NCBI RefSeq assembly: GCF_018919205.1
Contig: NZ_JAHLQN010000001.1
Coordinates: 1,426,001-1,490,000 of the forward strand
DNA from: Dysosmobacter acutus
GTDB lineage: Bacteria > Bacillota > Clostridia > Oscillospirales > Oscillospiraceae
Direction of reading: 5' to 3'
Length of the DNA stretch: 64,000 bases
Below are positions 12,379 to 29,948 of this stretch, one piece after another. The notes below the pieces were generated by a model, which made no database searches, had not been told where the DNA came from, and was given only the letters and a program-made list of their open reading frames with translations. Within the stretch, counting starts at the first letter, position 1; each line of letters starts with the position of its first letter. The translations under genes and the position numbers were made by a program.

Positions 12379-12684
12379 CTACTGCTTTGCGGAGGAGCTT
12401 GCGGAAGAGGCGGAGCTCTCCGGAGCGGTTTCCGGCGCGGCCTGGACAGGTAGCTGCTTGCCGGTGTGGTCGATGGTATAGTCGGTACCGCATTGCCCCT
12501 TGATGATGAGCTGAGAGATGGGAAGGATGGTGTAGCCCTGGGAGATCAGGTTTTCCAAAATGGAGGGCAGGGCCTCCGGAGTGTGCTTGGCGGCATTGTG
12601 GAACAAAACGATGCTGCCGGGCTGGACCTTGGAGGTGACCCGCTGGGTGATCTCGGAGGCAGGAATTTCTTTCCAGTCCAGACT
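12379..12684 (-). CDS. 3' segment of a PdaB-like polysaccharide deacetylase gene split by an integrated element
   Basis: This minus-strand segment encodes the last 101 residues of the deacetylase whose first 175 codons lie at 24428-24952. It begins SLDWKEIPASEIT, continues with the NodB motif 5 region SIVLFHNAAKHTPEALPS, then ILPISQLIIKG, and ends in a Ser/Ala/Pro-rich tail with TAG. It has no start codon or ribosome site of its own at the break; the in-frame ATG-like start at 12606 would make only a fragment. Joined to the 5' part at ATCC (12685-12688 / 24428-24431) the frame is continuous and gives 276 residues. On its own it cannot make an active enzyme. Confidence 0.85.
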   Translation of the reverse strand, partial: SLDWKEIPASEITQRVTSKVQPGSIVLFHNAAKHTPEALPSILENLISQGYTILPISQLIIKGQCGTDYTIDHTGKQLPVQAAPETAPESSASSASSSAKQ

Positions 12685-12712
12685 ATCCCCACTGGAAACC
12701 CCTGCAAGTGAC
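12671..12712. other. attL of the serine-recombinase element
   Basis: The host half (TTCCAGT at 12671-12677) lies left of ATCC (12685-12688); the element half with CTGCAA (12702-12707) lies right. The CTGCAA arm is 13 bases from the core, exactly mirrored at the other end. Confidence 0.75.
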
Positions 12713-12837
12713 GGTGCGGCGGGCTGTTGAGATTTTACAAATATTTAGCGTGAGCACGGGGGAAAAGAAAACATTGCAGATGATAGAATCTGCCTGTAGG
12801 CAAATCGTGTGAAGCAGAAAATAACAGGAGGTTGAGT

Positions 12838-15800
12838 ATGGTACCCAGTTACATGAAAAAGTGGCGGGACCGGTGGGGCAGGCGGCTAATGAGCGCCCTG
12901 CTGGCATTGACACTGTCCGTCGGCCTTTTGCCGGGCATAGCCCTGGCGGAAGAGGCGGAGGAACCGTTCCCTGCCGAAATAGAGCAAGAAACCACATACT
13001 ACGGAAGCAATCTCTCCTTGCAGGAGCTCTTTGGAGGGCTTTCCTATGGGGAAGAGACCATTCAGACCACGGATGGGCAGGATGTAAACACCTTTGTGGT
13101 CACGGTGGACGGCAGCGACGATTCCCTGCAGGTCGTCACCGGCGTTCCCAACGATGAGATACCTCTGAAAGAGGGGCTGACACAGACCACCTCCGCTCAG
13201 GCGGCCGCCGCTCAGATGAACGGCAAGAATGTGCTGGCGGCAGTCAACGCGGATTTTTTCAACATCAACGACGCCACGATGATCCAGCCCGCGGGCGTGA
13301 CCATCAAGGACGGAGAGCTGCTGACCCCGTACTATGAAGGGGACAATGTGAACCGCTCCTATTTCTTCGGCGTTTTGCAGGACGGCACTGCTGTAATCGG
13401 AGACAAGGAGACCTTCCTCTCCGTGGAAAGCGACCTGCAGCAGGCCGTGGGCGGCGGCCCGTGGCTGGTGAAAGAGGGCGAGGTCCAGGAGGTGGAGGAC
13501 CAGCGCCATCCCCGCACCGCCGTGGGCATCAAAGAGGACGGGTCCATTTTGCTGGTGGTGGCTGATGGCCGCTCCAGCGTTTCCGCCGGACTGACCTTCG
13601 TGGAGCTTGCCCGGTATATGAAGGACCTGGGCGCCGTGGAGGCGCTGAACTTGGACGGCGGCGGCTCTTCCGCGGCTGTGGTGAAAAACCCCGACACCTA
13701 TGCCCTGGAGGTGAAAAACGTTCCCTCCGACGGCACGGAGCGCCCGGTGGGCAACACCCTGCTGGTGATCGACGCCGACAGCACCTCCGCGGGCGTGGAT
13801 CTGGAGCAGGACAGCGACGGATATTACCTGATTGAAGAGGCGGCCGACTTTATCCAGATCAACAAGCTGGCCAACGGCAGCTACCGCCTGAACAATGATA
13901 TTGTCCTGGATGGGGAGAGCATTCCCTCCGTCTCCGTGTTCAGCGGTGAGTTTGACGGCGCTGACCACACCATTTCCGGACTGAGCGTGGACTCCGGCGG
14001 CAGCTACGCCCTCTTTACCACGCTCTCAGCTACCGGCAGCATCCATAACCTCTCTTTGGAGGATGTGGACATCACCGCCTCCGGCAGCGCCGCCGCCCTG
14101 GTGGGCAGCTGCGCGGGAAAAGTGGAGTATGTCGCCGTCACCGGCAGCATCGCGGGAAAGCAGAGAGTCGGCGGCATAGTCAGCTATCTGGACAACGGCG
14201 GCCAGCTGCTGCGCTCCTCCGCCGGAGTTAGCATCACCGGGACAGAGCGGATGGGCGGATTGGTCGGAGAATGCACCGACAATTCCCTGATTGACAGCTG
14301 CTATGTAAATGCCCGGGTTTTGGGCGGAAATATGGCGGCGGGCCTGGTGGGCCGGGCGGTCTCCGACAGCACCCATGACGCGAACATCAAAAACTGCATC
14401 GTCACCGGCTCCGTCCAGGGTGCCATCGAACCCGGCGGCATCGGCGGACTGCTGAAGATCGGCGTTGCCAACTGTATTGTCCGCGACATGAGCATCAACG
14501 CCACCAGCACCGCCGGAACCAGCAGCGGCAATGTGACCGGCCTTTTGGGCGCCTGGATCAACGGAAGCCAGCCCTATACCGGTAATGTGATCCAGTCCGG
14601 CTCCATCATTGCCACGGCTCAGTGCACGGCGCACCGGATCGGCTATCAGTCCAACAACAAATCCTATAACTACGTCAATCCCGCAGTGACCATCAACGGC
14701 CAGCCGGAGACCGGCGGCACTCACGACAACAACATCGGCGCCGACGCGACGGAAGAGCAATTGGCCTCCAGGGACTTCTATGCGGGCCTGGGCTTTGATT
14801 TTGACACCGTTTTTGACTGGGACGACACGGCCAAGACCCCGGTGCTCGTCGGCGTGGATCAGAGCGTGAAGGCGCCTTCTTCCGGAGAGGACTCCGAACT
14901 GGAACAGGACAGCGAGGGCTATTATCTGATTAAAACCACCGCTGATCTGAGCGAACTCAACAAAGCTCCCCTGGAAAGATACCGTCTGAGCGGCGACCTG
15001 GATTTTGAAGGGGAGAAGGCAGTCTCCATCACCACCTTCGGCGGTGAATTCGACGGCGCCGGATATACCCTGTCCAATCTGAGCGCCGCACCTGAGAGCG
15101 GAAGCTATGCCCTGTTCGGTACGCTGCTCTCCGGCGGTAGCATCCACGATCTGAAGCTGGCGGATGTGGATATCCGCGCATCCGCCGACTATACGGCGGC
15201 CCTGGTGGGCAGCTGCGCGGGTACAGTGGAAGATGTCACCGTCACCGGCAAAATCTATGGCGGCGGCAAGACCGGCGCCGTGGCGGGCAGCCTTTCAAAC
15301 GGAGGCGTGATTCGCCGCTGCGCCGTGGGCGCGATGGTGGTGGGCACCGGCGCCCAGGTGGGCGGCGTCGCCGGGTTCAACGACGGAATCATCGAGGCCT
15401 GCTACGCCAATATAAACGTGCAGGGCGTCAACAATGTGGGCGGCATCGCCGGCTACTCCGATATCGACGACGCCACCCGGGCGGTGCGCAGCTGCATCGC
15501 CGAGGGAGCTGTGACGTCCACAGGCATTGAGGCCGGCGGCATCGGCGGATTGCTGAAAATGCGCACAACCAACAACCTTGTCAGGAACATGGCCGTGACC
15601 GCGACCAATGCCACCACCGCCGCCGGAAGCGGCAATGTGGCGGGCCTGCTGGGCGGCTGGATGAAGTATCAGCCGGGCGCAACCGGAAACGTCATCCTGT
15701 CCGGCACGGTACAGACCGCGGGTGTGGGCGAGGGCTACCGCCTGTGCTACAACGCGGGTCAGGGCACCCTGGCGGAGAACTACGTCAATCCCGCGGTTAC

Positions 15801-18800
15801 AGTGAATGGAAAAACCGTCGCCGGCGGTACTGCCTCCGACGGACAGGGCGGAGATATGACAGCGGAGCAAATGGTTTCCAGAGACTTCTATGCGGGCCTG
15901 GGATTTGACTTTGACACCGTCTTTGACTGGGACGATGCAGCCAAGACTCCGGTTCTGAAACAGGTGGACCAGACGGTCACGGCGCCTGAGGCTGGCCCCG
16001 CTCCCGGAGATGCGGACGTTAAAAACATTGCGCTGACCGTCGGCACCGATGAGACGGAACGCCGCCTGAGCTGGTACACCGATTCCACAAATGCCGGCGA
16101 GGTGCAGCTTGCCCCTGCCTCCGCCATGACCGGCGGGGAATTCCCCGGCCAGTGCGAGTCCTTTGCCTCTGTCGGCAAGCCATCCAGCCTGGCGGGCTAC
16201 TACTCCAACCAGGCCACGCTTACGGGCCTGGACGCCAATACGGAATATGTCTACCGGGTGGGCAACAGCGACGGCTGGTCTGATACCTATGCCTTTACCA
16301 CCGGCAGCTTTGACGAGGGCGACGTCAGTTTCCTCTTTGCCGGAGACCCCCAGATTGGCTCCAGCGGCAATGTGGGCAGCGACGTCACCGGCTGGACCAC
16401 CTCTTTGAACAAGGCCGCCAGCTGGTTTGACGATGTCAGCTTCCTGCTCAGCGCCGGAGACCAGGTGGAGACCTATAACAATGAGACCCAGTATGCCGGC
16501 TTCCTGCAGCCGGAGGCCCTGCGTTCCATGACTCTGGCCACCAATATCGGCAACCACGACAGCAAGGGCGTCAACTACCAGGAGCATTTCGATCTGCCCA
16601 ACGAAGCCGTCTCTCAGGACGATACGGCGGCGGGCGGGGACTACTGGTACTCCTATAACGGCGTGCTGTTCCTCTCTCTGAACTCCAACAACGTAAGCAC
16701 CGCCCAGCACAAGGCGTTTCTGAATTCCGCCATCCAGGCTTATCGGGACGCCAATGGCGGCGCGGACCCCCTGTGGAAAATCGTAACCTTCCACCATTCT
16801 GTGTACTCCACGGCTTCCCACACCAACGACGGCGACATCCTCCAACGCCGCGCAGAGCTGCCGCTGGTGTTCAGCGAATTGGGGATCGACGCGGTGCTGA
16901 TGGGCCACGACCACGTATACACCCGCTCCCTGATGATGCAGGGGACCACGCCGGTCACCACCGGCTATACCGCCGCGGGCGGCAACGCCTACGCGTCCTA
17001 TGAGGCTGCCGCAAACAGCGGGGAAGTGTTCTACCTCACTGCCAACTCTGCCTCCGGCAGCAAGTTCTACGCCATCAAGACCAATGTGGACTTCCCCTTC
17101 CTGGCGGCACAGAACCAGGAGAGCATACCCAACCTCACCAAGGTGGATGTCACTGCGGATGCGATCACCTTCACCACCTACCGCACGGGAGAAGACAGCG
17201 AAGTCACCGACGTGGTGGATACCTTTACCCTCATGCGCGGCGGCACACCGGCTGAAGAGCCGGTGGATCAGCTGACCACCGCCAACGCCGTGTGGAGCTA
17301 TCTGGACGACAACACGGACCCCGGTACCCAGGAAGACGCCAAGGCGTGGACGAAAGCCGGCTATGACGACAGCGGCTGGTCCTCCGCCAAGGGTTCCTTC
17401 GGCGCCAAGAACGGTCAGATTGTGGAGGGCGCTCACAGCGGCCTGACGGCCAACACCCTGCTGCGCCAGTATCAAAACGGAACCGGCGAACCCAATACTC
17501 CGGCATTTTTCTTCCGCGCCGCATTCAGCCTGTCCGATCCGGAGAAGGTCTCCGCGCTGAGCGGCAGCCTGCGCTATGACGACGGTGTGATTGTCTACAT
17601 CAACGGCGTCAGAGTGGCCGGCTTCAACGACGAAGCAATCACCGGAAATATGAGCTTTAACGGCGGCAAGAGTGCAAACGACGCGGCCCTGGGGACCTTT
17701 GCGGTTTCCGGTGACGCCCTGGACGCGCTGAATTTGAAGGCCACCGGCAACGTTTTGGCCGTGGAGCTGCACAACGACAGCGAAGATAGCTCCGACGTGT
17801 TCCTTGACTTTACGGAATTGAAGGCATCTTATCCCGGTAAAGCGGAGTTCAGCAATATCATTATGAATGTGGGCGCGGATGAAACCGAGCGGTATGTCAC
17901 CTGGTACTCCGACTCCGTGAATGATGACAAGCTGCAGCTGGCCTTTGCCGCAGAGCCCGACACCTTCTACGACTATCCGGCCACCCGAGCCGTCAGCAAA
18001 TACGTGGCCGGCTGCTGTTACTACCACTGCAAACTCACCGGTATTCCCTCAAACATGGACTTTGTCTACCGGGTGGGCAATGAGACCGACGGATGGTCCG
18101 ATACCTACTCGTTCACCTCCGGCACAGCGGGGGACAAGCGCTTCAGCTTCCTGCTGGCCGGCGATCCCCAGATCGGCAGCGGCGGCACGCCGGCCGACAC
18201 CGCCGGCTGGATTACCACCATGAACAAGGCGGAGGAGTGGTTCCCCGAGGCCGAATTCATCATCAGCGCCGGCGACCAGGTGGACAATAAGGCCGATGAG
18301 TCCCAGTTCTTGGGATTCACCGCGCCGGAGCAGCTCAAGTCATTGCCGATGGCGGTGAATGTGGGCAATCACGACAGCGGTCTGGACAGCTACAGCGAGC
18401 ATTACATCGTGCCCAACGGCGACAGCGGCACCGTGACGCTCACCGGAGCCTACGGTGGCGACTACTGGTACAGCTATGACGGCGTGCTGTTCCTGTCCAT
18501 CAACTCCAATGACACCTCCACTGCCAAGCACACGGCCTTCCTGAAGAGCGCCATCGCCGCCTACACCGCCCAGTACGGCGAGCCCGCCTGGAAGATCGTA
18601 ACCTTCCATCACTCTGTGTACTCCACAGCCAGCCATGAAAGCGACCGGGATATCATCCAGCGCCGCAACGAGCTGCCGGTGGTGTTCAGCGAATTGGGGA
18701 TCGACGCGGTGCTGATGGGCCACGACCATGTCTACACCCGGACCTTCCTGATGAGCGGCACTCAGCCCACCACCAACACAGTGACAGACAGCGTCACGGA

Positions 18801-21117
18801 CCCCGGATACGGCCAGGTGCTCTATCTCACCGCCAACTCCGCTTCCGGCAGTAAGTTCTATGCCATCCACGACAAGCAGTTCCCCTACAGCGCGGTGACC
18901 AACCAGGAGAGCGTGCCCAACCTGACCAAGGTGGATGTGACGGAGGACTCCCTGACCTTTACCACATACCGCACCGGCGAGGAGAACACCATCGACGACG
19001 TGGTGGACACCTTTACCATCCGGCGCACCCAGGATAAGCCGGAAAACCCCATCACCAAGGAAACCCTGATCTCTACCGCGGATACCACATGGAAGTACCT
19101 TGATGACAACACTGACCCGGGCACGGCGGAGGAACCCAGGGCCTGGACCGCCGCCGACTATGCCGATTCGGTCTGGAAGACGGGAAAAGGGCCTTTTGGA
19201 GCCAAGGACGGTGAAATCAAGGAAGGCGCCCATGAGGGCCGTTTGCCCGCCACGCTGCTGCGTCAGTATCAGGACGGGATCGGCGAACCCAACACCCCGG
19301 CCTTCTTCTTCCGCACCACCTTTGACCTTGCAGATCCCGGCGCCGTCACCTCCCTGGAAGGACAGCTGTATTATGACGATGCCGCGGTGGTGTATATCAA
19401 CGGAGTCAAGGTGGCGGGGTACAATGATCAAAACCTGGCGGGGAACATGAGCTTCAGCAATGCCCAAACCACCAGCAACGCAGATTCCGGCACCTTTACG
19501 GTGACGGGCGGCATGCTCCGGTCCCTGAACCTGAAGGAGAGCGGCAATATTTTGGCCGTAGAACTGCATAACACCGACGACCACAGCTCCGACATCTTCA
19601 TAGAGTTTGCATCCCTGAGCGCCGTCGTTGACTCCAGCAAGGACACTTTGCCTCCGGTTCTGACGGTGCCTGGTGAGATCACACTGGCCAAAGGCGAGGA
19701 CTTTGACTCCATGGAGGGTGTCAGCGCCAGCGACTTGAGAGACGGCGATGTGACGGCGAATATCAAGGTGACGGGCAAGGTCAATACCGCCAAGGCCGGA
19801 ACCTATGTCCTGACCTACACCGTCGCGGACTCTGCCGGCAATGTGGCCACCGTCAGGCGCACCGTAACGGTCAGGGAGATACAGACTCTGATCACCACGG
19901 CCCAGACCCAGTGGAAGTACCGGGACGACAATGTGGACCCCGCCGCTGGCAGCAGCGACCGGACCAGCTGGACCCGGCCCGAGTATGATGATTCCGACGG
20001 TACCTGGAAGAGCGCCAAGGGTTCCTTCGGCGCCAAGAACGGCCAGATATCCGACCTGGGCGGCGGATGCGTGCCTGCCACGCTGCTGCGTCAGTATCAG
20101 GACGGAACCAGCAAACCCAACACCCCGGCCTTTTTCTTCCGCACCACCGTTACGCTGAGCGACGCCGGCAAGGTGGAGGCGCTGAAGGGAACCGTGTGCT
20201 ATGACGACGGCGTGATCCTCTATGTCAACGGTGTGCGCGTTGCGGCCTTTGACGATCTGGCGTGCAATGAGGACGGCGACTCGCTGGGCCACGGATTTGA
20301 CGCCAATTTGCAGTACGGCGGTTCCAACGCGAGTGATCCCAAGACGGCTTCCTTCTCCGTTGCCGGCGACGCGCTGAAGGCGCTGAATCTGAAATCCGGA
20401 GAGAACACGGTTGCCGTGGAACTGCACAACGGCCGCGCCACCAGCTCCGATGTATACTTTGACCTCCTGTCTCTGACGGCGGAGATGAAGATAAGCTCCT
20501 CTGAAGGCAGCGACTCGGGTGATTCGGGTAATTCCGGCGGTTCCGGTTCCTCCGGCGCACCTGTGCAGAAAGAACGCTTCACCGATGTGCCCGCCGGCTA
20601 CTGGGCCCACGACGCCATTGAATTTGTGGCGGAGGAAGGCCTGTTCCAGGGCACCAGCGCCAGCCGCTTCTCCCCGGAGGCATCTATGACCCGGGCCATG
20701 GTGGCCGCGGTGCTCTACCGCATGGCGGGCGAGCCTGAGAGCGGCACGGCTGGGTTCCCCGATGTCCCTGCCGATGCTTGGTGCGCCGACGCTATCGCCT
20801 GGGCCAGTGAAAAGGGGATTGTCCTTGGGACAGACAGCGGCCTCTTCCTGCCGGATAACAGCGTCACCAGACAGGAACTGGCGGCCATGCTCTACCGTTA
20901 CGCTGCGGCCATGGGTGAGGATGTCAGCAAAACCGGTGCGCTGAGCGTCTTTACGGATTCCGCCGCCATTCCCCAGTGGTCTTCCGGGGCCCTTTCCTGG
21001 GCTGTGGGCAGCGGGATTCTGAACGGCAAGTCCGACGGCAGCCTGGACCCCTGCGGCACGGCAACCCGCGCCCAAGTGGCAACCATGCTTCAGCGCTTTG
21101 CCAACTTCTGCAAATAA
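12838..21117 (+). CDS. giant SLH-anchored surface protein with phosphodiester glycosidase and two metallophosphoesterase domains
   Basis: This 2759-residue secreted protein starts at ATG 12838, 6 bases after AGGAGG. Order: signal peptide (about 1-37, ending GIALA); NAGPA-type phosphodiester glycosidase (about 100-315, with NADFFNI and LNLDGGGSS); two GLUG-like repeat domains (about 323-681, 689-1051); two units of Fn3-like domain plus purple-acid-phosphatase-like metallophosphoesterase (about 1060-1470, 1670-2060). Each metallophosphoesterase has AGDPQIGS, GDQV, GNHDS, HHSVYSTASH and MGHDHVYTR. Three jelly-roll modules (about 1478-1671, 2075-2266, 2350-2551) and one DUF5011-like Ig domain (2268-2348) follow, then a Ser/Gly linker and three SLH domains (2580-2759). 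It probably removes phosphate from glycan or phosphodiester substrates at the cell surface; substrates are unknown. Confidence 0.88.
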   Translation: MVPSYMKKWRDRWGRRLMSALLALTLSVGLLPGIALAEEAEEPFPAEIEQETTYYGSNLSLQELFGGLSYGEETIQTTDGQDVNTFVVTVDGSDDSLQVVTGVPNDEIPLKEGLTQTTSAQAAAAQMNGKNVLAAVNADFFNINDATMIQPAGVTIKDGELLTPYYEGDNVNRSYFFGVLQDGTAVIGDKETFLSVESDLQQAVGGGPWLVKEGEVQEVEDQRHPRTAVGIKEDGSILLVVADGRSSVSAGLTFVELARYMKDLGAVEALNLDGGGSSAAVVKNPDTYALEVKNVPSDGTERPVGNTLLVIDADSTSAGVDLEQDSDGYYLIEEAADFIQINKLANGSYRLNNDIVLDGESIPSVSVFSGEFDGADHTISGLSVDSGGSYALFTTLSATGSIHNLSLEDVDITASGSAAALVGSCAGKVEYVAVTGSIAGKQRVGGIVSYLDNGGQLLRSSAGVSITGTERMGGLVGECTDNSLIDSCYVNARVLGGNMAAGLVGRAVSDSTHDANIKNCIVTGSVQGAIEPGGIGGLLKIGVANCIVRDMSINATSTAGTSSGNVTGLLGAWINGSQPYTGNVIQSGSIIATAQCTAHRIGYQSNNKSYNYVNPAVTINGQPETGGTHDNNIGADATEEQLASRDFYAGLGFDFDTVFDWDDTAKTPVLVGVDQSVKAPSSGEDSELEQDSEGYYLIKTTADLSELNKAPLERYRLSGDLDFEGEKAVSITTFGGEFDGAGYTLSNLSAAPESGSYALFGTLLSGGSIHDLKLADVDIRASADYTAALVGSCAGTVEDVTVTGKIYGGGKTGAVAGSLSNGGVIRRCAVGAMVVGTGAQVGGVAGFNDGIIEACYANINVQGVNNVGGIAGYSDIDDATRAVRSCIAEGAVTSTGIEAGGIGGLLKMRTTNNLVRNMAVTATNATTAAGSGNVAGLLGGWMKYQPGATGNVILSGTVQTAGVGEGYRLCYNAGQGTLAENYVNPAVTVNGKTVAGGTASDGQGGDMTAEQMVSRDFYAGLGFDFDTVFDWDDAAKTPVLKQVDQTVTAPEAGPAPGDADVKNIALTVGTDETERRLSWYTDSTNAGEVQLAPASAMTGGEFPGQCESFASVGKPSSLAGYYSNQATLTGLDANTEYVYRVGNSDGWSDTYAFTTGSFDEGDVSFLFAGDPQIGSSGNVGSDVTGWTTSLNKAASWFDDVSFLLSAGDQVETYNNETQYAGFLQPEALRSMTLATNIGNHDSKGVNYQEHFDLPNEAVSQDDTAAGGDYWYSYNGVLFLSLNSNNVSTAQHKAFLNSAIQAYRDANGGADPLWKIVTFHHSVYSTASHTNDGDILQRRAELPLVFSELGIDAVLMGHDHVYTRSLMMQGTTPVTTGYTAAGGNAYASYEAAANSGEVFYLTANSASGSKFYAIKTNVDFPFLAAQNQESIPNLTKVDVTADAITFTTYRTGEDSEVTDVVDTFTLMRGGTPAEEPVDQLTTANAVWSYLDDNTDPGTQEDAKAWTKAGYDDSGWSSAKGSFGAKNGQIVEGAHSGLTANTLLRQYQNGTGEPNTPAFFFRAAFSLSDPEKVSALSGSLRYDDGVIVYINGVRVAGFNDEAITGNMSFNGGKSANDAALGTFAVSGDALDALNLKATGNVLAVELHNDSEDSSDVFLDFTELKASYPGKAEFSNIIMNVGADETERYVTWYSDSVNDDKLQLAFAAEPDTFYDYPATRAVSKYVAGCCYYHCKLTGIPSNMDFVYRVGNETDGWSDTYSFTSGTAGDKRFSFLLAGDPQIGSGGTPADTAGWITTMNKAEEWFPEAEFIISAGDQVDNKADESQFLGFTAPEQLKSLPMAVNVGNHDSGLDSYSEHYIVPNGDSGTVTLTGAYGGDYWYSYDGVLFLSINSNDTSTAKHTAFLKSAIAAYTAQYGEPAWKIVTFHHSVYSTASHESDRDIIQRRNELPVVFSELGIDAVLMGHDHVYTRTFLMSGTQPTTNTVTDSVTDPGYGQVLYLTANSASGSKFYAIHDKQFPYSAVTNQESVPNLTKVDVTEDSLTFTTYRTGEENTIDDVVDTFTIRRTQDKPENPITKETLISTADTTWKYLDDNTDPGTAEEPRAWTAADYADSVWKTGKGPFGAKDGEIKEGAHEGRLPATLLRQYQDGIGEPNTPAFFFRTTFDLADPGAVTSLEGQLYYDDAAVVYINGVKVAGYNDQNLAGNMSFSNAQTTSNADSGTFTVTGGMLRSLNLKESGNILAVELHNTDDHSSDIFIEFASLSAVVDSSKDTLPPVLTVPGEITLAKGEDFDSMEGVSASDLRDGDVTANIKVTGKVNTAKAGTYVLTYTVADSAGNVATVRRTVTVREIQTLITTAQTQWKYRDDNVDPAAGSSDRTSWTRPEYDDSDGTWKSAKGSFGAKNGQISDLGGGCVPATLLRQYQDGTSKPNTPAFFFRTTVTLSDAGKVEALKGTVCYDDGVILYVNGVRVAAFDDLACNEDGDSLGHGFDANLQYGGSNASDPKTASFSVAGDALKALNLKSGENTVAVELHNGRATSSDVYFDLLSLTAEMKISSSEGSDSGDSGNSGGSGSSGAPVQKERFTDVPAGYWAHDAIEFVAEEGLFQGTSASRFSPEASMTRAMVAAVLYRMAGEPESGTAGFPDVPADAWCADAIAWASEKGIVLGTDSGLFLPDNSVTRQELAAMLYRYAAAMGEDVSKTGALSVFTDSAAIPQWSSGALSWAVGSGILNGKSDGSLDPCGTATRAQVATMLQRFANFCK
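16866..16913 (+). repeat. copy 1 of a 48-bp perfect internal repeat in the giant surface gene
   Basis: Identical to 18681-18728. It encodes VFSELGIDAVLMGHDH around the active-site histidines of the first metallophosphoesterase. Confidence 0.85.
18681..18728 (+). repeat. copy 2 of the 48-bp perfect internal repeat
   Basis: Identical to 16866-16913, in the second metallophosphoesterase. The surrounding domains are similar but diverged, which suggests duplication followed by local homogenisation or strong constraint. Confidence 0.85.
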
Positions 21118-21129
21118 GAACCATTGTAA

Positions 21130-21160
21130 GCCGCCCCGCGGAATTGTCCCGCGGGGCGGC
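21130..21160 (+). terminator. hairpin after the giant surface gene
   Basis: GCCGCCCCGCGG (21130-21141) pairs with CCGCGGGGCGGC (21149-21160). There is no T run, so termination may be partial. Confidence 0.6.
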
Positions 21161-21260
21161 TCATTGGATTTAACAGGAATTTTACTCCGGCGGGAGGGAA
21201 GACAGACTTATGAAATGGTACAATACAGTCTGAAGTACTGATTGAAACGGAGTGTTCAGA

Positions 21261-22442
21261 TTGCAGAAAAAGGCGGTAAAAATTGAAAGGCGGAACGCCG
21301 TTGTCACCGTCGCCGTCCTGGCGGTGCTGACGTCTTTGGTGGTGGGGATGCATCTTACGGCGCCTGAAAAGTACGTCATGTACAGCTCAGAAAGCATCAC
21401 ATACGAGCAGGGCAGGGTCACGGCGGTGCTGTCCGAACGGCTGGAGGAGGCGCCGGGTATGCCGGGCTGGAAACTGGGGGAGCAGGAAATCCGGGTGGAG
21501 TTCATGAGCGGCGCCTGGAAGGGCCAAGAAGTCCAGCTGACCAACAACCTCTCCACCACCCATAACATCCATGTCCGGGTGGGTCAGCGGGTGATCGTCA
21601 AGGCGGACTGCCCGGAACATGTGGAGCCCTACTATACGCTCTACAATTATGACCGGGCACCGGGACTGATGGCTGTGGGGCTGATTTTTGTGGCCATGAT
21701 GGCCTTGGTGGGCCGCGGCAAAGGACTCAAAAGTGTTCTGGGCCTGGGGATTTCCCTGTTTTTCATCCTGGGTTTTTTGCTGCCGGCCATCTATCGGGGC
21801 TGGTCGCCGGTGATGACGGCGTCCCTGACAGTGGTGGTGATCGCCGCTTTCTCCCTGATCCTGCTCAACGGGTTCAGCCGGAAAACCGCCACGGCCGTGA
21901 CGGCCACGGCGGCGGGCGTTGTGTTCTCGGCGGGATTTTTCCTGCTGCTTTCCGCCCTGCTGAGCCTTTCAGGCTATAACCAGCCCGAGGCGGAGGAGCT
22001 GATTCTGATCTCCCAGCACACCGGTCTGCGGATCGGTGAGGTGTTGTTCGCGGGAGTGCTGATCTCCTCCCTTGGCGCGGTGATGGATACCACCATGTCC
22101 ATCGCCTCCTCTCTGCACGAACTGCATGAGGTCCATCCGGACCGGAAGGGCTGGGATCTGTTCCGGTCCGGGATCGTCATTGGCCGCGATATGATCGGCA
22201 CCATGTGCCAGACGCTGGTATTGGCCTTTGTGGGCAGCTCCATTGCATCTCTTTTGGTGCTCTGCTCCTATGGGACCCGGCTGGACCAGTTCCTCAGCTC
22301 CGATTACGCGGCCATTGAGGTGGTGCATGCGGTTTCCGGCAGCCTGGCGGTGATTGTCTCCGTCCCGGTAACAGCCTTCCTGTGCGCCCTGGACAGTAGC
22401 CGGACAAACATCGTAAAGGAAAAAGGACAGAAAAAGCGCTGA
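21261..22442 (+). CDS. YibE/F family membrane protein
   Basis: The 393-residue protein has an N-terminal membrane helix (NAVVTVAVLAVLTSLVVGM), an extracytoplasmic beta-rich part, then seven or so helices with family-like motifs (KGLKSVLGLGISLFFILGF, LGAVMDTTMSIASSLHEL, GRDMIGTMCQTLVLAF). YibE/F proteins are widespread in Firmicutes and of uncertain function, possibly transport. A TTG at 21261 follows GGAG by 8 bases; a GTG at 21252 is an alternative with a poorer site. It lies inside the recombinase element, between the giant surface gene and the recombinase. Confidence 0.85.
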   Translation: MQKKAVKIERRNAVVTVAVLAVLTSLVVGMHLTAPEKYVMYSSESITYEQGRVTAVLSERLEEAPGMPGWKLGEQEIRVEFMSGAWKGQEVQLTNNLSTTHNIHVRVGQRVIVKADCPEHVEPYYTLYNYDRAPGLMAVGLIFVAMMALVGRGKGLKSVLGLGISLFFILGFLLPAIYRGWSPVMTASLTVVVIAAFSLILLNGFSRKTATAVTATAAGVVFSAGFFLLLSALLSLSGYNQPEAEELILISQHTGLRIGEVLFAGVLISSLGAVMDTTMSIASSLHELHEVHPDRKGWDLFRSGIVIGRDMIGTMCQTLVLAFVGSSIASLLVLCSYGTRLDQFLSSDYAAIEVVHAVSGSLAVIVSVPVTAFLCALDSSRTNIVKEKGQKKR

Positions 22443-22523
22443 CCCGGCGGCATACTTTTCTTGCCGCGCCATATAGATGTCATAGTGGACCATCCGAATA
22501 TCCCGCAGGGAGGAGAGAACGCT

Positions 22524-22667
22524 ATGACAATTGTGCATCTGTATGTCAACAGCCGCAGCCCCGCAAAGGACCTGATCCTGCAAAAGAACGCGCTGTGCCT
22601 GAGGAAGCTGCGCCGAATGCGCAAGAGTGAGGACGCCCCGCAGGCCCGGGAGATCGGCGGCCGCTGA
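22524..22667 (+). CDS. 47-residue basic protein coupled to the recombinase
   Basis: A small ORF with an excellent GGAGGAG site 8 bases before ATG encodes MTIVHLYVNSRSPAKDLILQ and a very basic middle (LRKLRRMRK). Its TGA overlaps the ATG of the recombinase (TGATG at 22665-22669), so the two are probably translationally coupled. I do not recognise a family. Size, charge and position fit a recombination directionality factor or another recombinase accessory protein, but this is inference; a leader ORF that only sets recombinase translation is also possible. Confidence 0.6.
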   Translation: MTIVHLYVNSRSPAKDLILQKNALCLRKLRRMRKSEDAPQAREIGGR

Positions 22668-24100
22668 TGGACGCGGTGTACGCCAGACAGTCGGTGGATA
22701 AACGGGACAGCGTCTCCATTGAAACCCAGATCGAATACTGCGCCCGGGCCATAGACGGCGGCTATACGGTTTACAAGGACCGGGGATTTTCCGGCAAAAA
22801 CACCAACCGTCCGGAGTTCATGCGCATGCTGGAGGACATCCGGCAGGGAAAGGTCTCAAAGGTGTGGGTGTACCGGCTGGATCGGTTCAGCCGATCCATT
22901 CTGGATTTTGGGCAGCTCTGGGCGCTCCTTGAGCAGCACCACGTGGAGTTTGAGAGCATCACGGAGAAGTTCGACACCTCCACACCAAGCGGACGGGCCA
23001 TGCTCAATATCATCATGACCTTTGCCCAGCTGGAGCGGGAAACCATCGCCCAGCGGGTGCAGGACAACTATTACCACCGCGTTGCATTGGGCAGCTGGCC
23101 AGGGGGGCCGGCGCCTCTTGGCTTTTCCATCGCAAAGACGCGGGATGATGCTGGACGCAGTGCGCCCACGCTGACAGCCAACGCCGACATGGAGATAGTG
23201 CGGCGGATTTTCTTGGAGTATCTAAAGCCGGGCGCCTCCCTTGCCGGCGTGGCCAGAAAGCTGACACGGGAGGGGATTTGCGGCATCCGCCGCAGAGGGT
23301 GGGACAGCGTGGCCATTTCCCGGATTCTGAAAAATCCGGTCTACGTCATGGCGGACCGGCAGGTTTATCTCCACTTTGCCGCCCAGGGCATCCTTATTGA
23401 ACAGCCAGCGGAGGCTTTCACAGGGAAAATGGCCTGCCACCTGGTGGGCAAGCGGAACCGGCCGGCTGGAGAGAAGGGGGAGGCCAGACTGTCCCTTGCA
23501 AACCACGCCGGCGTGATCCCTCCGGAGGTTTGGCTGGGGTGCCAGGAAAAGCTGTCCGCCAACCGGCAGATCGACCGCTCCGGCGTGGGCAGGCACAGCT
23601 GGCTGTCCGGGCTTTTGAAGTGCGGCGGCTGCGGCTACGCGGTGAAGATCAGCCGGTGCGGCGATACATATTACCTCCACTGCAGCGGCCATACAAACCT
23701 GGGAATCTGCGAAGAAAAGATAGAGGCAGATCTCAGGGAGCTGGAGGATGCGGTGGGCTCGTCCATTCAATCCATGCTTTCCCGGTGCCCGGATGAGGAG
23801 GAAGACTCTGACAGCACGGAGGCGGAGAAGCTTCGCAGGATAGACGGGCAGATCGAACGGCTGGTGGCCGCTTATGCAGGGAGCACGGAGATCACGGCGG
23901 CCTACCTCAACGAGGAGATATCACGGCTGGGTGAGGAGCGGCGGGCACTCGCTCAGATCAGGCGGCGCTCAGGCCGGGAAGCCTTGGCCCGCATTGAGTT
24001 TTCAAGTTTGAGCATGGCGGAAAAAAAAATGGTGGCGTCCGAGCTGATCGACCGCATCCTCCTCTCCGGCGACCGGGCGGAAATCCTCTGGAAGGTTTGA
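22667..24100 (+). CDS. large serine recombinase (site-specific integrase/excisionase)
   Basis: The 477-residue protein has the resolvase catalytic domain (about 1-140) with the nucleophile serine in VYARQSVDK (S9) and the arginine cluster VYRLDRFSRS. The recombinase domain (about 150-290, with PLGFSIAK and ISRILKNPVY) is followed by a zinc ribbon LKCGGCGYAVK...YYLHCSGH...C (about 320-350) and a coiled coil before the C-terminal domain, the standard large serine recombinase plan. It should catalyse attP x attB integration, and excision with a partner factor. It is the last gene of the element, about 330 bp from the right att site. Confidence 0.95.
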   Translation: MDAVYARQSVDKRDSVSIETQIEYCARAIDGGYTVYKDRGFSGKNTNRPEFMRMLEDIRQGKVSKVWVYRLDRFSRSILDFGQLWALLEQHHVEFESITEKFDTSTPSGRAMLNIIMTFAQLERETIAQRVQDNYYHRVALGSWPGGPAPLGFSIAKTRDDAGRSAPTLTANADMEIVRRIFLEYLKPGASLAGVARKLTREGICGIRRRGWDSVAISRILKNPVYVMADRQVYLHFAAQGILIEQPAEAFTGKMACHLVGKRNRPAGEKGEARLSLANHAGVIPPEVWLGCQEKLSANRQIDRSGVGRHSWLSGLLKCGGCGYAVKISRCGDTYYLHCSGHTNLGICEEKIEADLRELEDAVGSSIQSMLSRCPDEEEDSDSTEAEKLRRIDGQIERLVAAYAGSTEITAAYLNEEISRLGEERRALAQIRRRSGREALARIEFSSLSMAEKKMVASELIDRILLSGDRAEILWKV

Positions 24101-24259
24101 CCCGCGGGAAACCTGACCAAAGGCGGAGAAAGCCTGGACTGAAAAATGCTTGACAGGGAAAAGGGTTGCGCCGCACTTTAGAAAATTCAATCAGAAAACC
24201 GTTGAAGCGGAGAAAACGGCGATTACGAGCCTGCGGAGAGTCGGGCGACCGGAGGAGCG

Positions 24260-24952
24260 TCAAATGGACCGCTGAGGGCGCAGGGAAAGTGGGCGTTCCG
24301 GAAGATCAGGGTGCTTGTGGAGGCTGTCCGGAACAATGGCTGAAGGAGGGGAGGTACCATTTGGTACCTCCCCTCCTTCTTGTTGGGAAAGGACTGAGCG
24401 GACAGGAGTTGCAGCTGTTGCGCATACATCCACGTCCCACTGGATGGGTTCCATGCCGATGGAGCGGATGGCGGAGACCACGTGGTCGTCGTATTCCCCA
24501 TAGGGACAGCGGATCAGGGTGGGGCGCACGCCGGTGACGGCCTCCACTTTGTCGTTGCAGGTGTTGACGTCGGCCGTGATCTCATCGGCGGAGAGCTGGT
24601 TGTAGTGGGCGTGGGTTGCAGAGTGATTCATCACCTCGTGGCCGGCATCGGACAGGGCCTTCACAGACTCGGGGTACTTATCCACCCACTGGCCCACCAC
24701 GAAAAAGGTGGCCTTTACCTTGTACTGTTCGAGGATGTCGATGAGCATCTGGGTGTCCTCGTTGCCCCAGGCGGCGTCGAAGCTGATGGAGCAGACTTTC
24801 TGGTCCTTATCCACACAGTAGATGGGCAGCTGGCGGTCGGTGGCGTAGGCGCCAACGGCCGACGGATAGGAGACGGAATAGAAGATCGCGCAGACAGCCA
24901 GAAATCCGGCCAGCAAGGTGACGTTTTTGTGTTTGACAACAAATATTTTCAA
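24260..24952 (-). CDS. 5' segment of a PdaB-like polysaccharide deacetylase, read through into the element
   Basis: A TTG start at 24952 follows GAGGAGG. The product has an N-terminal membrane anchor (about 8-30), then a NodB deacetylase domain: CSISFDAAWGNEDTQ (motif 1), NHSATHAHYNQ (motif 2, H-x4-H type), RCPYGEYDD (motif 3) and EPIQWDVD (motif 4). Codon 175 (Asp, 24430-24428) is the last host codon. The following 55 residues (VCATAATPVRS onward) come from the element and resemble nothing. The enzyme lacks motif 5 and is probably inactive as it stands. FDAAWG in motif 1 resembles sporulation deacetylases of the PdaB group, so a cortex or spore-envelope role is likely. Confidence 0.85.
   Translation of the reverse strand: MKIFVVKHKNVTLLAGFLAVCAIFYSVSYPSAVGAYATDRQLPIYCVDKDQKVCSISFDAAWGNEDTQMLIDILEQYKVKATFFVVGQWVDKYPESVKALSDAGHEVMNHSATHAHYNQLSADEITADVNTCNDKVEAVTGVRPTLIRCPYGEYDDHVVSAIRSIGMEPIQWDVDVCATAATPVRSVLSQQEGGEVPNGTSPPSAIVPDSLHKHPDLPERPLSLRPQRSI
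24343..24378 (+). terminator. hairpin at the right end of the element
   Basis: A perfect 16-bp stem, AAGGAGGGGAGGTACC (24343-24358) with its complement (24363-24378) and loop ATTT. The T run is short. The stretch 24101-24342 before it shows no convincing gene. Confidence 0.65.
24405..24447. other. attR of the serine-recombinase element
   Basis: The element half with TTGCAG (24409-24414) lies 13 bases left of the ATCC core (24428-24431); the host half with ACTGG (24439-24443) lies 7 bases to its right. Confidence 0.75.
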
Positions 24953-24974
24953 GTGAGATCCCTCCTCGTAGGAG

Positions 24975-25001
24975 AAGTATGCCTGTCATGCCTCAATTAT
25001 G
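24975..25001 (-). promoter_or_regulatory. possible sigma-E-like promoter of the split deacetylase gene
   Basis: On the minus strand CATAATT (25001-24995), 13 bases, then CATACTT (24981-24975), 22 bp before the start codon. This is close to the sigma-E pattern (ATA ... CATACAnT); no sigma-A promoter is obvious here. Confidence 0.35.
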
Positions 25002-25037
25002 AATCGGAAGGGGGAACCCTGGCCGGCGAAGGCAAAA

Positions 25038-25568: not shown

Positions 25569-25588
25569 TGATATATTTTAGTATATCA
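25569..25588 (-). promoter_or_regulatory. palindromic candidate operator before marR
   Basis: TGATATA (25569-25575), six bases, TATATCA (25582-25588): a perfect 7+7 inverted repeat at the end of fabZ, just upstream of the marR start. Confidence 0.55.
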
Positions 25589-26041
25589 AGTCTCGGGGGA
25601 AACGGCAAGCCCATTCGCTCCTATGGCAAAGCTCATCTCCGCCGTGGCCACCAGGGTTCCGTTTACGCTGGCCTTGGCTGAGCCGATACCCACCGGGCCG
25701 CGCCGGGCCGTGAGAACGCACTCCAGCTCCAGCACGTCCCCGGGCGTGACCCTGGCCTTGAACCGGGCATTTTTAATGCCGCCGAAATAGGCGGTTTTAC
25801 CCCTGTTTTCCGGCGCTGACAAAATGGCCACCGCACCCACCTGGGCCATGGCCTCCACGATCAGCACGCCGGGCATCACGTGCTCTTGAGGAAAGTGACC
25901 GCAGAATACCGCCTCTCCCGCGCTGACGCATTTGATGCCCTTTGCCCACCGGCCGGGCTCGCCGCCGGTGATGCGGTCCACCAGGGCAAAGGGGTAGCGG
26001 TGGGGCAGAATCTCTGCGATTTCATTGGAATTGAGCTGCAT
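25586..26041 (-). CDS. fabZ: 3-hydroxyacyl-ACP dehydratase
   Basis: The 151-residue hotdog-fold protein has the FabZ signatures EILPHRYPFALVDRI (catalytic His) and GHFPQEHVMPGVLIVEAMAQ (catalytic Glu). It dehydrates 3-hydroxyacyl-ACP to trans-2-enoyl-ACP. The ATG at 26041 lies two bases after the fabF stop. No separate FabA/FabN isomerase is seen here, so the source of unsaturated fatty acids is not shown by this operon. Confidence 0.93.
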   Translation of the reverse strand: MQLNSNEIAEILPHRYPFALVDRITGGEPGRWAKGIKCVSAGEAVFCGHFPQEHVMPGVLIVEAMAQVGAVAILSAPENRGKTAYFGGIKNARFKARVTPGDVLELECVLTARRGPVGIGSAKASVNGTLVATAEMSFAIGANGLAVSPET

Positions 26042-26042
26042 G

Positions 26043-27284
26043 TCAACCCTCCCAGTTCCGCAGCAAAATGCTGCCGTTGTGGCCGCCGAACCCAAGGGAA
26101 TTGGACAGGGCGCAGCGCAGCGCGGCCCGCCTGCCCTTGTTGGGCACCACGTCCAGATCGCACTGCGGATCGGGTACGGCGTAGTGAATGGTGGCGGGCA
26201 AAAAGCCGTCCCGCAGCGCAAGGGCGGAGAAAATGGCCTCCACGGCTCCGGCCGCTCCCAACATGTGCCCTGTCATGGATTTGGTGGAGCTGACGGCAAG
26301 GCGCCGGGCCCAGCTGCCGAAAACCGAGTGGATGGCCGCGGTCTCACAGGCGTCGTTTAAGGGCGTGGAGGTGCCGTGGGCGTTGATGTAGTCCACCTCC
26401 TCCAGCGCGGCGCCGGCGTCCGCAAGGGCCATTGCCATGGCTTTTGCGCCGCCGCTGCCGTCGGGACGGGGCGCCGTGATGTGATAGGCGTCGCAGGTGG
26501 CCCCGTAGCCCACCACCTCCGCATAGGGTTTGGCGTTGCGCGCCAGGGCGTGATTCAGCTCCTCCAGCACCAGCACGCCCGCGCCCTCGCCCAACACAAA
26601 GCCGCTGCGCTGGGCGTCAAAGGGGATGGAGGCCCGGGCGACGTCTTCACCGGTGCAAAGAGCCTTCATGGAGGTGAAACCGCCCACCGCCAACGGCGTG
26701 ATGGAGGCCTCCGTGCCGCCGCAGAGCATGACCTCCGCATAGCCGTCCCGAATGTAGCGGAAGGCGTCGCCCACGGCATAGGTGCCGCCGGCGCAGGCTG
26801 TGACCGGACATGAGCACATGCCGCGGAAGCCGGCGTCAATGGCCACCTGTCCGGCGGCCATGTTGCAGATGGTGGAGGGGATGTAGAAAGGGGAGACCTT
26901 GTCAAAGCCCCGCTCCACGCCCCGGTCGTGCTCCCGCTCTATGTTGGAGAGGGAGCCGATGCCGCTGGAGAGGATGACTCCGCAGCGCTCCGCGTCTTCC
27001 CGCTCACTGGCCAGAGCGCTGTCAGAGAGGGCTTCCCGGGCGGCGATCAGCGCAAACTGGGTAAAGCGCTCCATGTGCTTTGCTTCCTTCTTGTCCAAAA
27101 AGTCCTCGGACCGGTAGTTCTTCACCTCCGCCGCCAGATTGACCTTCTGGCCGGAGGGATCGTAGGCTGTGATCGGCCCTATTCCGCAGACTCCCCGGCG
27201 GACGGCGTCCCAGCTCTCTGGCGCGCTGTGGCCGATGGGGGTGATGGCGCCGATCCCGGTGATGACAACTCGTCGTTTCTCCAT
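26043..27284 (-). CDS. fabF: beta-ketoacyl-ACP synthase II
   Basis: 413 residues with the Cys-His-His triad in VTACAGGTYAVGDA, NAHGTSTPLND and SMTGHMLGAAGAVEA. It condenses malonyl-ACP with acyl-ACP in elongation. AAGGAGG precedes the ATG, and it lies 11 bp after fabG. Confidence 0.95.
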   Translation of the reverse strand: MEKRRVVITGIGAITPIGHSAPESWDAVRRGVCGIGPITAYDPSGQKVNLAAEVKNYRSEDFLDKKEAKHMERFTQFALIAAREALSDSALASEREDAERCGVILSSGIGSLSNIEREHDRGVERGFDKVSPFYIPSTICNMAAGQVAIDAGFRGMCSCPVTACAGGTYAVGDAFRYIRDGYAEVMLCGGTEASITPLAVGGFTSMKALCTGEDVARASIPFDAQRSGFVLGEGAGVLVLEELNHALARNAKPYAEVVGYGATCDAYHITAPRPDGSGGAKAMAMALADAGAALEEVDYINAHGTSTPLNDACETAAIHSVFGSWARRLAVSSTKSMTGHMLGAAGAVEAIFSALALRDGFLPATIHYAVPDPQCDLDVVPNKGRRAALRCALSNSLGFGGHNGSILLRNWEG

Positions 27285-27295
27285 TGCTGCCTCCT

Positions 27296-28039
27296 TTACA
27301 TACCCATGCCGCCGTCGATGCCCAACACCTGTCCAGTGATGTATCCGGCCTCGCTGCCGGAAAGAAAGGCCACAGCGGCGGCCACATCCTCCGCCCTGCC
27401 TAAGCGCCCCATGGGAATGGAGCGCGCCAGGGCGGATTTCGCATCCTCCGGCAATGAGGCGGTCATGTCCGTTTCGATGAAACCCGGCGCCACCGCGTTG
27501 ACGGTGATCCCCCGGGAAGCAAGCTCCCTGGCGGCGGATTTGGTCATGCCGATGATGCCGGCCTTGCTGGCGGCGTAGTTGACCTGGCCCGCGTTGCCGT
27601 GGAGGCCCACCACGGAGCTCACGTTGACAATGCGGCCGGAGCGCTGGCGCAGCATGATGCGGGAGACGGCTTTCATGGTGAGAAATGCCCCCCGGAGATT
27701 GGTGTCCACCACCGCGTCAAAGTCCGGCTCCTTCATGGTCATCAGCAATCCGTCCCGGGTGATTCCGGCGTTATTGACCAGAATGTCAACGCGTCCAAAG
27801 AAATCCATGGCGGCGTCCACCAGCTCCTTGACGCAAATGCTTTGGGACACGTCTCCCCGGACGGCGGCGCAGGCAGCGCCCAGGCCGCGGACGGCGGAAA
27901 CGGTTTCCTCCGCGGCGGCCGTGTTCCCGGCATAGCAAAAAACGATATTGGCGCCGCCCCGGGCCAGCGTTAAGCAGACCGCCCGGCCGATGCCCCGGCT
28001 TCCGCCGGTGACGACGGCGGTTTGATTGGCAAAGCTCAT
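27296..28039 (-). CDS. fabG: 3-oxoacyl-ACP reductase
   Basis: The 247-residue short-chain dehydrogenase has the NADP motif VTGGSRGIGRAV, NNAG, and the catalytic Ser and YxxxK (NVSSVVG, NYAASKAG). It reduces 3-oxoacyl-ACP. Its ATGA overlaps the fabD stop. Confidence 0.94.
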   Translation of the reverse strand: MSFANQTAVVTGGSRGIGRAVCLTLARGGANIVFCYAGNTAAAEETVSAVRGLGAACAAVRGDVSQSICVKELVDAAMDFFGRVDILVNNAGITRDGLLMTMKEPDFDAVVDTNLRGAFLTMKAVSRIMLRQRSGRIVNVSSVVGLHGNAGQVNYAASKAGIIGMTKSAARELASRGITVNAVAPGFIETDMTASLPEDAKSALARSIPMGRLGRAEDVAAAVAFLSGSEAGYITGQVLGIDGGMGM

Positions 28040-28971
28040 CGGCTCACTCCTTTCAGCTGTTCCGGCAGGTTCGGCACATCCTCCGCGGTCTCCACGCTGA
28101 AACAGGGGAGGCCGGGCACGGTTTTGCGGACAAACCCGGCCAGTGTTTTACCGGGACCGATCTCCACCACGGCGTCCACCTCCAGCTGGGCCATGCGGCG
28201 GATGCATTCCTCCAGGTAGACCGGGCTTTGCACCTGACGCTCCAGAAGAGCGGGGATGGAGTCCCCGGGCCCCATCTCCCGGCCCAGGCAGTTGAAGAGC
28301 ACGGGGATGGCGGGCGGCGCGAATGGGACGGTCTCAAAATAGGAGCGCAGGGCGTCCCCCGCGCCGCGCAGCAGCGAGGTGTGGAAGGGACCGCTGACCT
28401 TCAGGGGCAGGCAGCGCCTGGCGCCCTTTTCTTTGCACAGTTTCGCCGCCCGGACCACGGCGGCCGCCTCGCCGCTGATGACGACCTGACCGGGACAGTT
28501 GAAGTTGCAGGCCTCCGCCACACCAAGCCGGCTTGCTTGGGCGCAGGCCTCCGCCACGCCGGAGCGGTCCAGCCCCAGCACCGCCACCATGGCGCATTCA
28601 ACTCCCCGGGCGGCATCGGCCATGGCAGCGCCCCGGAAGGCGGCGGTGGAGACGGCGGCCTGTGCGTCCAGAACTCCGGCCGCGTGGAGCGCGGAGTATT
28701 CTCCAAGGGAGAGTCCGGCGGTGACGGAGGGCGCTATGCCCAGCCGGCGCAGCACGGCGGTGAGCCCGGCGGCAAAGGCCACCATACAGGGCTGGGTGTA
28801 CCGGGTCTGGTTCAGCAGCTCCTCAGGGCCATCAAAGGAGACGGCCCTGAGGTCAAAGCCCGGGCGGGAGGCATCGATCACGGTCCGGAACTCCGGATAG
28901 AGCGCATAGAGGTCCGCTCCCATGCCGACGTGCTGGACGCCCTGGCCGGCGTATAAAAATCCAAGCTTCAT
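28036..28971 (-). CDS. fabD: malonyl-CoA:ACP transacylase
   Basis: 311 residues with the N-terminal GQGVQHVGMG, the nucleophile motif GLSLGEYSAL (Ser) and a downstream catalytic His in SGPFHTSLL. It loads malonyl groups onto ACP. It overlaps fabK and fabG by four bases each. Confidence 0.93.
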   Translation of the reverse strand: MKLGFLYAGQGVQHVGMGADLYALYPEFRTVIDASRPGFDLRAVSFDGPEELLNQTRYTQPCMVAFAAGLTAVLRRLGIAPSVTAGLSLGEYSALHAAGVLDAQAAVSTAAFRGAAMADAARGVECAMVAVLGLDRSGVAEACAQASRLGVAEACNFNCPGQVVISGEAAAVVRAAKLCKEKGARRCLPLKVSGPFHTSLLRGAGDALRSYFETVPFAPPAIPVLFNCLGREMGPGDSIPALLERQVQSPVYLEECIRRMAQLEVDAVVEIGPGKTLAGFVRKTVPGLPCFSVETAEDVPNLPEQLKGVSR

Positions 28972-29900: not shown

Positions 29901-29948
29901 ATCGTTCAAACGCTTCCCTTGAAGGGAAGGCATTCCTCCATTCTTTGT

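Follow-up and report, generated by a model that had tools for sequence, protein, structure and literature searches.

A pdaB-like gene in two pieces

The window analysed here, a stretch of 64,000 nucleotides from Dysosmobacter acutus (contig NZ_JAHLQN010000001.1, positions 1,426,001 to 1,490,000), contains a pdaB-like deacetylase gene in two pieces, and the element that lies between them encodes a large serine recombinase (LSR) (Table 1). The genome comprises 3.16 Mb in two contigs. The gene is read from the minus strand with TTG as start codon, and its match to relatives is lost after codon 174 and a GA core. When the two pieces are joined at this core they give 276 residues in one stop-free frame containing PIQWDVDSLDWK, with a WDVDSLDW stretch as in relatives. 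Their coverage of the NCBIfam model TIGR02764 (PdaB) is complementary, and therefore they are complementary parts of one gene and not parts of two.

The initial annotation had described a deacetylase gene split at codon 175 by an LSR element, with a PdaB-like target and restoration in frame by joining at a shared ATCC (GGAT on the gene strand). The split is borne out by relatives that are contiguous at this point, and the restored frame by the joined sequence. The join at ATCC also stands, with the crossover now narrowed to the dinucleotide GA by the comparison of attachment sites. PdaB is the top family for the intact orthologue L012, from which the score was taken rather than from the joined protein of the window. 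This orthologue reaches 213.4 bits and the curated cut-off is 237.4, and because it scores below the cut-off "PdaB-like" was chosen as the name and is a description of the right strength. A search of the window genome with the N-terminal piece, which the annotation had suggested, found no second close pdaB copy, the next match being 26% identical.

Comparison of the best 80 of 241 relatives, including Flavonifractor, Pseudoflavonifractor, Lawsonibacter and other Oscillospiraceae, shows that pdaB is contiguous over the break point in 64 of them and that the N-terminal part stops at the same codon in the other 16. Pseudoflavonifractor sp. Marseille-P3106 (L045) is one of the relatives with the gene split at this codon. 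This position, codon ~175, is referred to as site B and its recombinases as type B. The LSR of the window is 47-54% identical to those of ten relatives broken at the same codon. A profile of eleven LSRs, applied to 398 genomes of the family with a threshold of E 1e-160, detected type-B LSRs in 37 genomes (the window's included), one per genome. For 36 of the 37, the boundary of the pdaB pieces falls at codon ~175, which makes a break at this codon more than chance; in some of the 37 (for example G332, G334 and G190) a single side of the break was recovered. In G427 pdaB was found only as its first 76 codons, and G312, a bin with 9% contamination, has a contiguous copy besides the split one. 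Pairs of pieces flanking site B on the same contig were found 17 times in type-B genomes, with the LSR between them in 16.

The attachment sites were compared in 37 attL/attR pairs. Since attL tracks pdaB as far as GA and attR tracks it from GA onward, GA is taken as the crossover dinucleotide. By eye, attB is partly palindromic about GA (CCAGT ... ACTGG). In the 37 site-B pairs the attP arms are inverted repeats centred on GA with a mean complementarity of 0.687 over 22 positions, compared with 0.205-0.317 at register shifts of 1-6. Arms paired at random between genomes reach 0.487, with a maximum of 0.556 in 500 shuffles, and it follows from this difference that the two arms of one element co-vary. 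The arms of the window element itself are 0.55 complementary.

Split genes from 49 genomes were joined at their att cores, and 48 of them give one open frame, ten of these from three pieces. Among the genes joined are those of G465, G468, G399, G182 and G411 and seven with a break at codon ~62. In several genomes the pieces lie on different contigs and were taken as belonging together, and for G360 one of two C-terminal copies was used. Genomes in which a piece was missing or not fetched were left out, among others G190, G257, G332, G334, G427, G463, G471 and G472.

Some genomes have additional or displaced pieces. Two C-terminal pieces are present in G360 (L328-L331), and an N-side fragment belonging to one of them lies 21 kb from it. 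An extra C-terminal piece lies beside a contiguous 60-254 stretch in G039 (L149, L150). In G047 (L142, L143) the C-terminal piece is located about 42 kb upstream of the N-terminal piece on the same strand, opposite to the expected order.

Table 1. Coordinates of the features of the interrupted pdaB-like locus, numbered from the first nucleotide of the window
Feature	Position	Strand	Basis
N-terminal part of pdaB-like gene, codons 1-174 and GA core	24429..24952	-	TIGR02764 model positions 1-129
C-terminal part of pdaB-like gene, GA core to stop	12379..12687	-	TIGR02764 model positions 130-191
Intervening element, 11,743 bp core to core	12688..24430		Distance between GA cores
attL: pdaB half-site, GA core (24430-24429), element arm	24387..24450	-	attL/attR pair comparison
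attR: element arm, GA core (12687-12686), pdaB half-site	12663..12728	-	attL/attR pair comparison
LSR, type B	22667..24100	+	Pfam Resolvase, Recombinase, Zn ribbon
47-residue open reading frame overlapping LSR start, candidate recombination directionality factor	22524..22667	+	Position matches conserved ~40-residue family
Cargo: YibE/F-like membrane protein	21252..22442	+	PF07907
Cargo: 2761-residue surface protein with phosphodiester glycosidase, purple acid phosphatase/metallophosphatase repeats and SLH	12832..21117	+	Domain matches
Sigma-E-like promoter before pdaB, TCATAAT-N14-CATACTTC	24974..25002	-	Matrix scan; sigma-G matrix also scores
Weak sigma-E-like site before small open reading frame and LSR, GAAAAAG-N14-CATACTTT	22430..22458	+	Matrix scan, shuffle p 0.049

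A second break at codon ~62

Elements with an unrelated LSR type, here called type A and 24-27% identical to the LSR of the window, interrupt pdaB at codon ~62 (site A) in other relatives. A profile search of the 398 family genomes at E 1e-190 detected type-A LSRs in 36, of which 30 have pdaB pieces with a break at codon ~62. One of the 30, G280, also has a pdaB copy contiguous from codon 35. The gene is contiguous over site A in four genomes with a type-A LSR (G325, G423, G036 and G360), where either the recombinase is located elsewhere or the bins are mixed. Among the remaining type-A genomes, G410 has a contiguous pdaB together with a stray N-terminal piece, and no pdaB piece was found in G318. 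By eye, the arms of the site-A elements form a near-perfect inverted repeat.

One or both LSR types are present in 61 of the 398 genomes, and both together in 12 where about 3.3 would be expected (Fisher p 2e-5, kinship not corrected for). Eleven genomes (G399, G182, G150, G201, G213, G237, G308, G312, G411, G430 and G257) have all three pieces of pdaB, about 1-65, 60-176 and 170-256, and in G399, G150 and G430 the pieces share a contig and a strand. In G399, a member of the window's genus, the site-B LSR is 41% identical to that of the window and does not reach the type-B threshold; the same holds for whatever occupies site B in G257. Where the second LSR type interrupts the gene at codon ~62 as well, pdaB would have to be put together from three DNA segments.

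A cassette with amidotransferase-like, amidoligase-like and resolvase genes, and in some cases a relaxase-like gene, is common to site-A and site-B elements (L134, L138, L124, L145-L146), as if either LSR module rode on one backbone.

Recombinase, small reading frames and promoter-like sites

The three main open reading frames (ORFs) of the window element encode the LSR, the YibE/F-like protein and the surface protein, and neither phage structural or replication genes nor a relaxase domain were recognised among them. The site-B element of G473 carries a MobA/VirD2-like relaxase. The 11 site-B elements that were compared have no ORF family in common besides the LSR and its antisense frames. A relative of the surface protein, with about 81% nucleotide identity over 3.9 kb and with modules differing in order and orientation, is carried by the site-B element of G459.

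The best NCBIfam match of the window LSR is the XisF model NF041201, but the score of 139.4 bits is far below the curated cut-off of 375 and an identity as XisF was rejected. A phage origin was likewise not supported: matches to the LSR in phage records are all below 60% identity, the eight listed being at most 32% identical, and those in the 80 viral contigs retained of 227 relatives are at most 46% identical. Three paralogues of the LSR in the same genome (34-40% identity) were considered as interrupters of further sporulation genes and dismissed, as they sit among other genes. One of them adjoins a probable mobilization gene, judging from ORFs read by eye, and no sporulation gene was recognised near the three in neighbourhoods that are only partly annotated.

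Of 13 elements that were read, 12 have an ORF of about 40 codons ahead of the LSR, G399 being doubtful. Leave-one-out profile searches recovered 11 of 12 of these ORFs at 5e-6 or better, the exception being that of the window. A profile of the family, for which six of the 29 type-B LSR loci searched had served as input, detected it ahead of the LSR at 28 of them (E 0.0042 or better). Type-A LSRs have a different small ORF ahead of them at 10 of 10 loci read by eye. The small ORFs gave no match in Pfam (three peptides) or PHROGs (two). Some LSRs of this kind are known to work with factors that determine the direction of excision, according to the available parts of PMC5025042 and PMC5595907, and by analogy the small ORFs may act in this way here.

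Promoter-like sites were scored with simple consensus matrices, hits being counted at shuffle p <= 0.05. Upstream of pdaB, sigma-E-like sites stand out in 31 of 88 regions, compared with five for sigma-K, four for sigma-G, three for sigma-F and none for sigma-A. The available part of PMC4703394 lists Bacillus subtilis pdaB (spoVIE) in the sigma-E regulon. Upstream of the LSR, sigma-E-like sites occur in 11 of 36 regions and in one of 103 control stretches (Fisher p 9e-7). For the other matrices the corresponding numbers of regions and controls are two and two (sigma-K), two and one (sigma-G), five and two (sigma-F) and one and six (sigma-A).

Genes for fatty-acid synthesis (FabZ, FabF, FabG, FabD and FabK-like, read from ORFs) lie upstream of pdaB at 25586-29933 and are separated from it by a MarR-like gene.

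Probable excision in the mother cell and its alternatives

The GA crossover, the palindromic attP arms, the ORF of about 40 residues and the sigma-E-like sites point, at the level of sequence, to excision in the mother cell. We consider it likely that the serine-recombinase element leaves pdaB during sporulation and thereby restores the gene, so that pdaB would probably be reassembled at the DNA level when the spore forms. The element would then be a mobile element, non-phage by its genes, with an LSR type dedicated to one attB within pdaB. The LSR, probably steered by the small protein, would recombine attL with attR at GA, releasing a circle of 11.74 kb and rejoining pdaB in frame, and the spore would retain the unexcised copy. 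What we infer from this pattern is that excision occurs, that it is restricted to sporulating mother cells, that the small protein takes part in it and that PdaB is needed.

Some members of the family have the same gene interrupted at codon ~62 by the second, unrelated LSR type. A wider interpretation is that pdaB is a gene with two DNA introns, for which the mother cell would need both of two unrelated lineages of recombinase, each all but restricted to its own site and having its own small partner, to join up to three segments as a two-step gate. We regard the chances of this wider interpretation as evenly balanced.

Several observations weigh against programmed excision. Neither an excised circle nor a restored gene was seen in the window genome. 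The sigma-E-like site before the window's LSR is weak, and the small ORF of the window is a weak match to its family (E 0.26 in the leave-one-out search and 0.27 with a larger profile that left out the window). Between the second pair of pieces in G360, on contig C26, there is no LSR that reaches the threshold. In G407 (L332) the N-terminal part is frameshifted near codon 135, which is either real decay or an assembly error. No conserved gene order was found around the empty site: the P-II-like gene that adjoins the window's C-terminal piece has a homologue at 0 of 64 intact loci, many of which end at contig edges, and the other neighbouring genes tried are absent from the eight intact loci inspected. 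At the split locus of G399 the phosphatase-like gene, about 10 kb from the C-terminal piece, is the only one of the window's neighbours present, and in G459 there are none.

The history of the element and the need for the gene belong to the same side. LSRs are 67-69% identical in hosts with PdaBs that are 93-95% identical, and on the tree the split state requires 16 changes for 18 site-B tips (shuffled mean 16.9) and eight for nine site-A tips (8.8). Because the LSRs are more diverged than the PdaBs and the changes are as many as with shuffled labels, the insertions appear to be mostly independent and perhaps recent, and co-descent of host and element was rejected as unsupported. The sites look as if they have been colonised again and again, so that the recency of insertion may be part of the reason why the halves are intact. 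Among 16 other genomes of the window's genus that were examined, 15 have no close pdaB and nothing nearer to it than NodB proteins of at most 33% identity, although the sporulation marker SpoIVA is found in 20 of 21 genus genomes. The two species of the genus that keep pdaB are those of the window, with two pieces, and of G399, with three. PdaB is thus not indispensable in the genus, which weakens the argument from need.

An alternative is that pdaB is a mere docking site, where the element comes and goes in growing cells with no tie to sporulation and carriers are PdaB-negative until it is lost. The mismatch between the histories of LSR and host, the congeners that live without a close pdaB and the relaxase in G473 fit such an explanation, and so does the metagenome bin G471 (L164, L165), which holds split and intact alleles from different strains. 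The contigs with the intact gene and with attL are identical for exactly 140 nucleotides and then differ by two single-nucleotide polymorphisms before the joint. These differences separate the two alleles, so the intact one reflects a strain polymorphism for the element and was rejected as an excision product. However, a docking site does not account for the sigma-E-like sites ahead of both LSR and pdaB or for in-frame rejoining in 48 of 49 genes. Neither are the branches of split genes longer than those of intact ones, the terminal branches having a median of 0.089 in 25 split PdaBs and 0.078 in 75 intact ones (p 0.30). We therefore consider a docking site unlikely.

The initial annotation had named a simple inactivating insertion as its alternative, with decay of either half in related strains as its sign. 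The frameshift in G407 and the lack of pdaB in most congeners examined are what remnants of an inactivated gene might leave. However, both halves are open and conserved in 48 of 49 genes and complementary in their model coverage, and the ratio of nonsynonymous to synonymous substitution rates in the 14 closest pairs of split genes is well below 1 in each half (0.037-0.176 in the N-terminal part and 0.030-0.251 in the C-terminal part). The comparison with relatives thus disfavours this alternative, possible decay being confined to the one frameshifted gene, and we regard it as very improbable. Separate expression of the pieces as a split protein, with which the persistence of both open frames would agree, is less credible still, since relatives are broken at different codons into up to three pieces at LSR att sites and the C-terminal piece of the window opens only with element sequence ahead of it.

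Programmed excision of the element from pdaB would have several counterparts. It resembles skin in sigK of B. subtilis and Clostridioides difficile, where an LSR element interrupts a mother-cell sporulation gene and the frame is restored. In C. difficile a separate factor, CD1234, sets the direction under sigma-E, according to the available part of PMC5025042. The present case differs from skin in its target, in the lack of recognised phage genes among the main ORFs, in the candidate small ORF directly before the LSR and in the two att sites per gene across the family. The interrupted sporulation genes named in the part of PMC10747680 available are sigK, spsM, spoVFB, gerE and yabG. SP-beta in spsM, vfbin in spoVFB and yin in yabG likewise interrupt a sporulation gene and have a site-specific recombinase, but these have other targets and are described in the same part of that source as prophages or prophage-like, unlike the element in pdaB, in which no phage gene was recognised among the main ORFs. 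The intervening element gin in gerE of Bacillus cereus ATCC10987 is likewise of non-phage kind and leaves its gene during sporulation through an LSR and the factor GirX; as far as the available text of PMC5595907 goes, gin has three serine recombinases and 31 genes, whereas the window element has one LSR and two large cargo genes and belongs to a commensal Clostridia family. The heterocyst elements (fdxN/XisF and others) are also excised in a terminal cell type, and XisF is the family nearest to the window LSR, but their targets are cyanobacterial heterocyst genes and not sporulation genes. In heterocyst-forming cyanobacteria 10 of 87 interrupted genes contain several elements, according to the accessible part of PMC4874684. 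A literature search that lacked most subscription journals and preprints did not find an interruption of pdaB, or pdaB together with "intervening element" and sporulation. We rate as new the target pdaB, the non-phage nature of the elements and the occurrence, within a single sporulation gene, of two recombinase types that are each almost restricted to one site.

Among spore formers, programmed excision of DNA has been described from a few genes. The present comparison adds pdaB as a repeated target in a gut family, at two sites that can be filled together. The many att pairs with known LSRs constitute a ready test set for the specificity of serine integrases, and surveys that predict sporulation from the presence of genes may miss genes that are split in this way. 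A repeated target also opens to test some questions beyond the reach of single cases: what draws these elements to mother-cell genes, how a developmental switch is acquired by each of them and whether the small ORFs act as direction factors.

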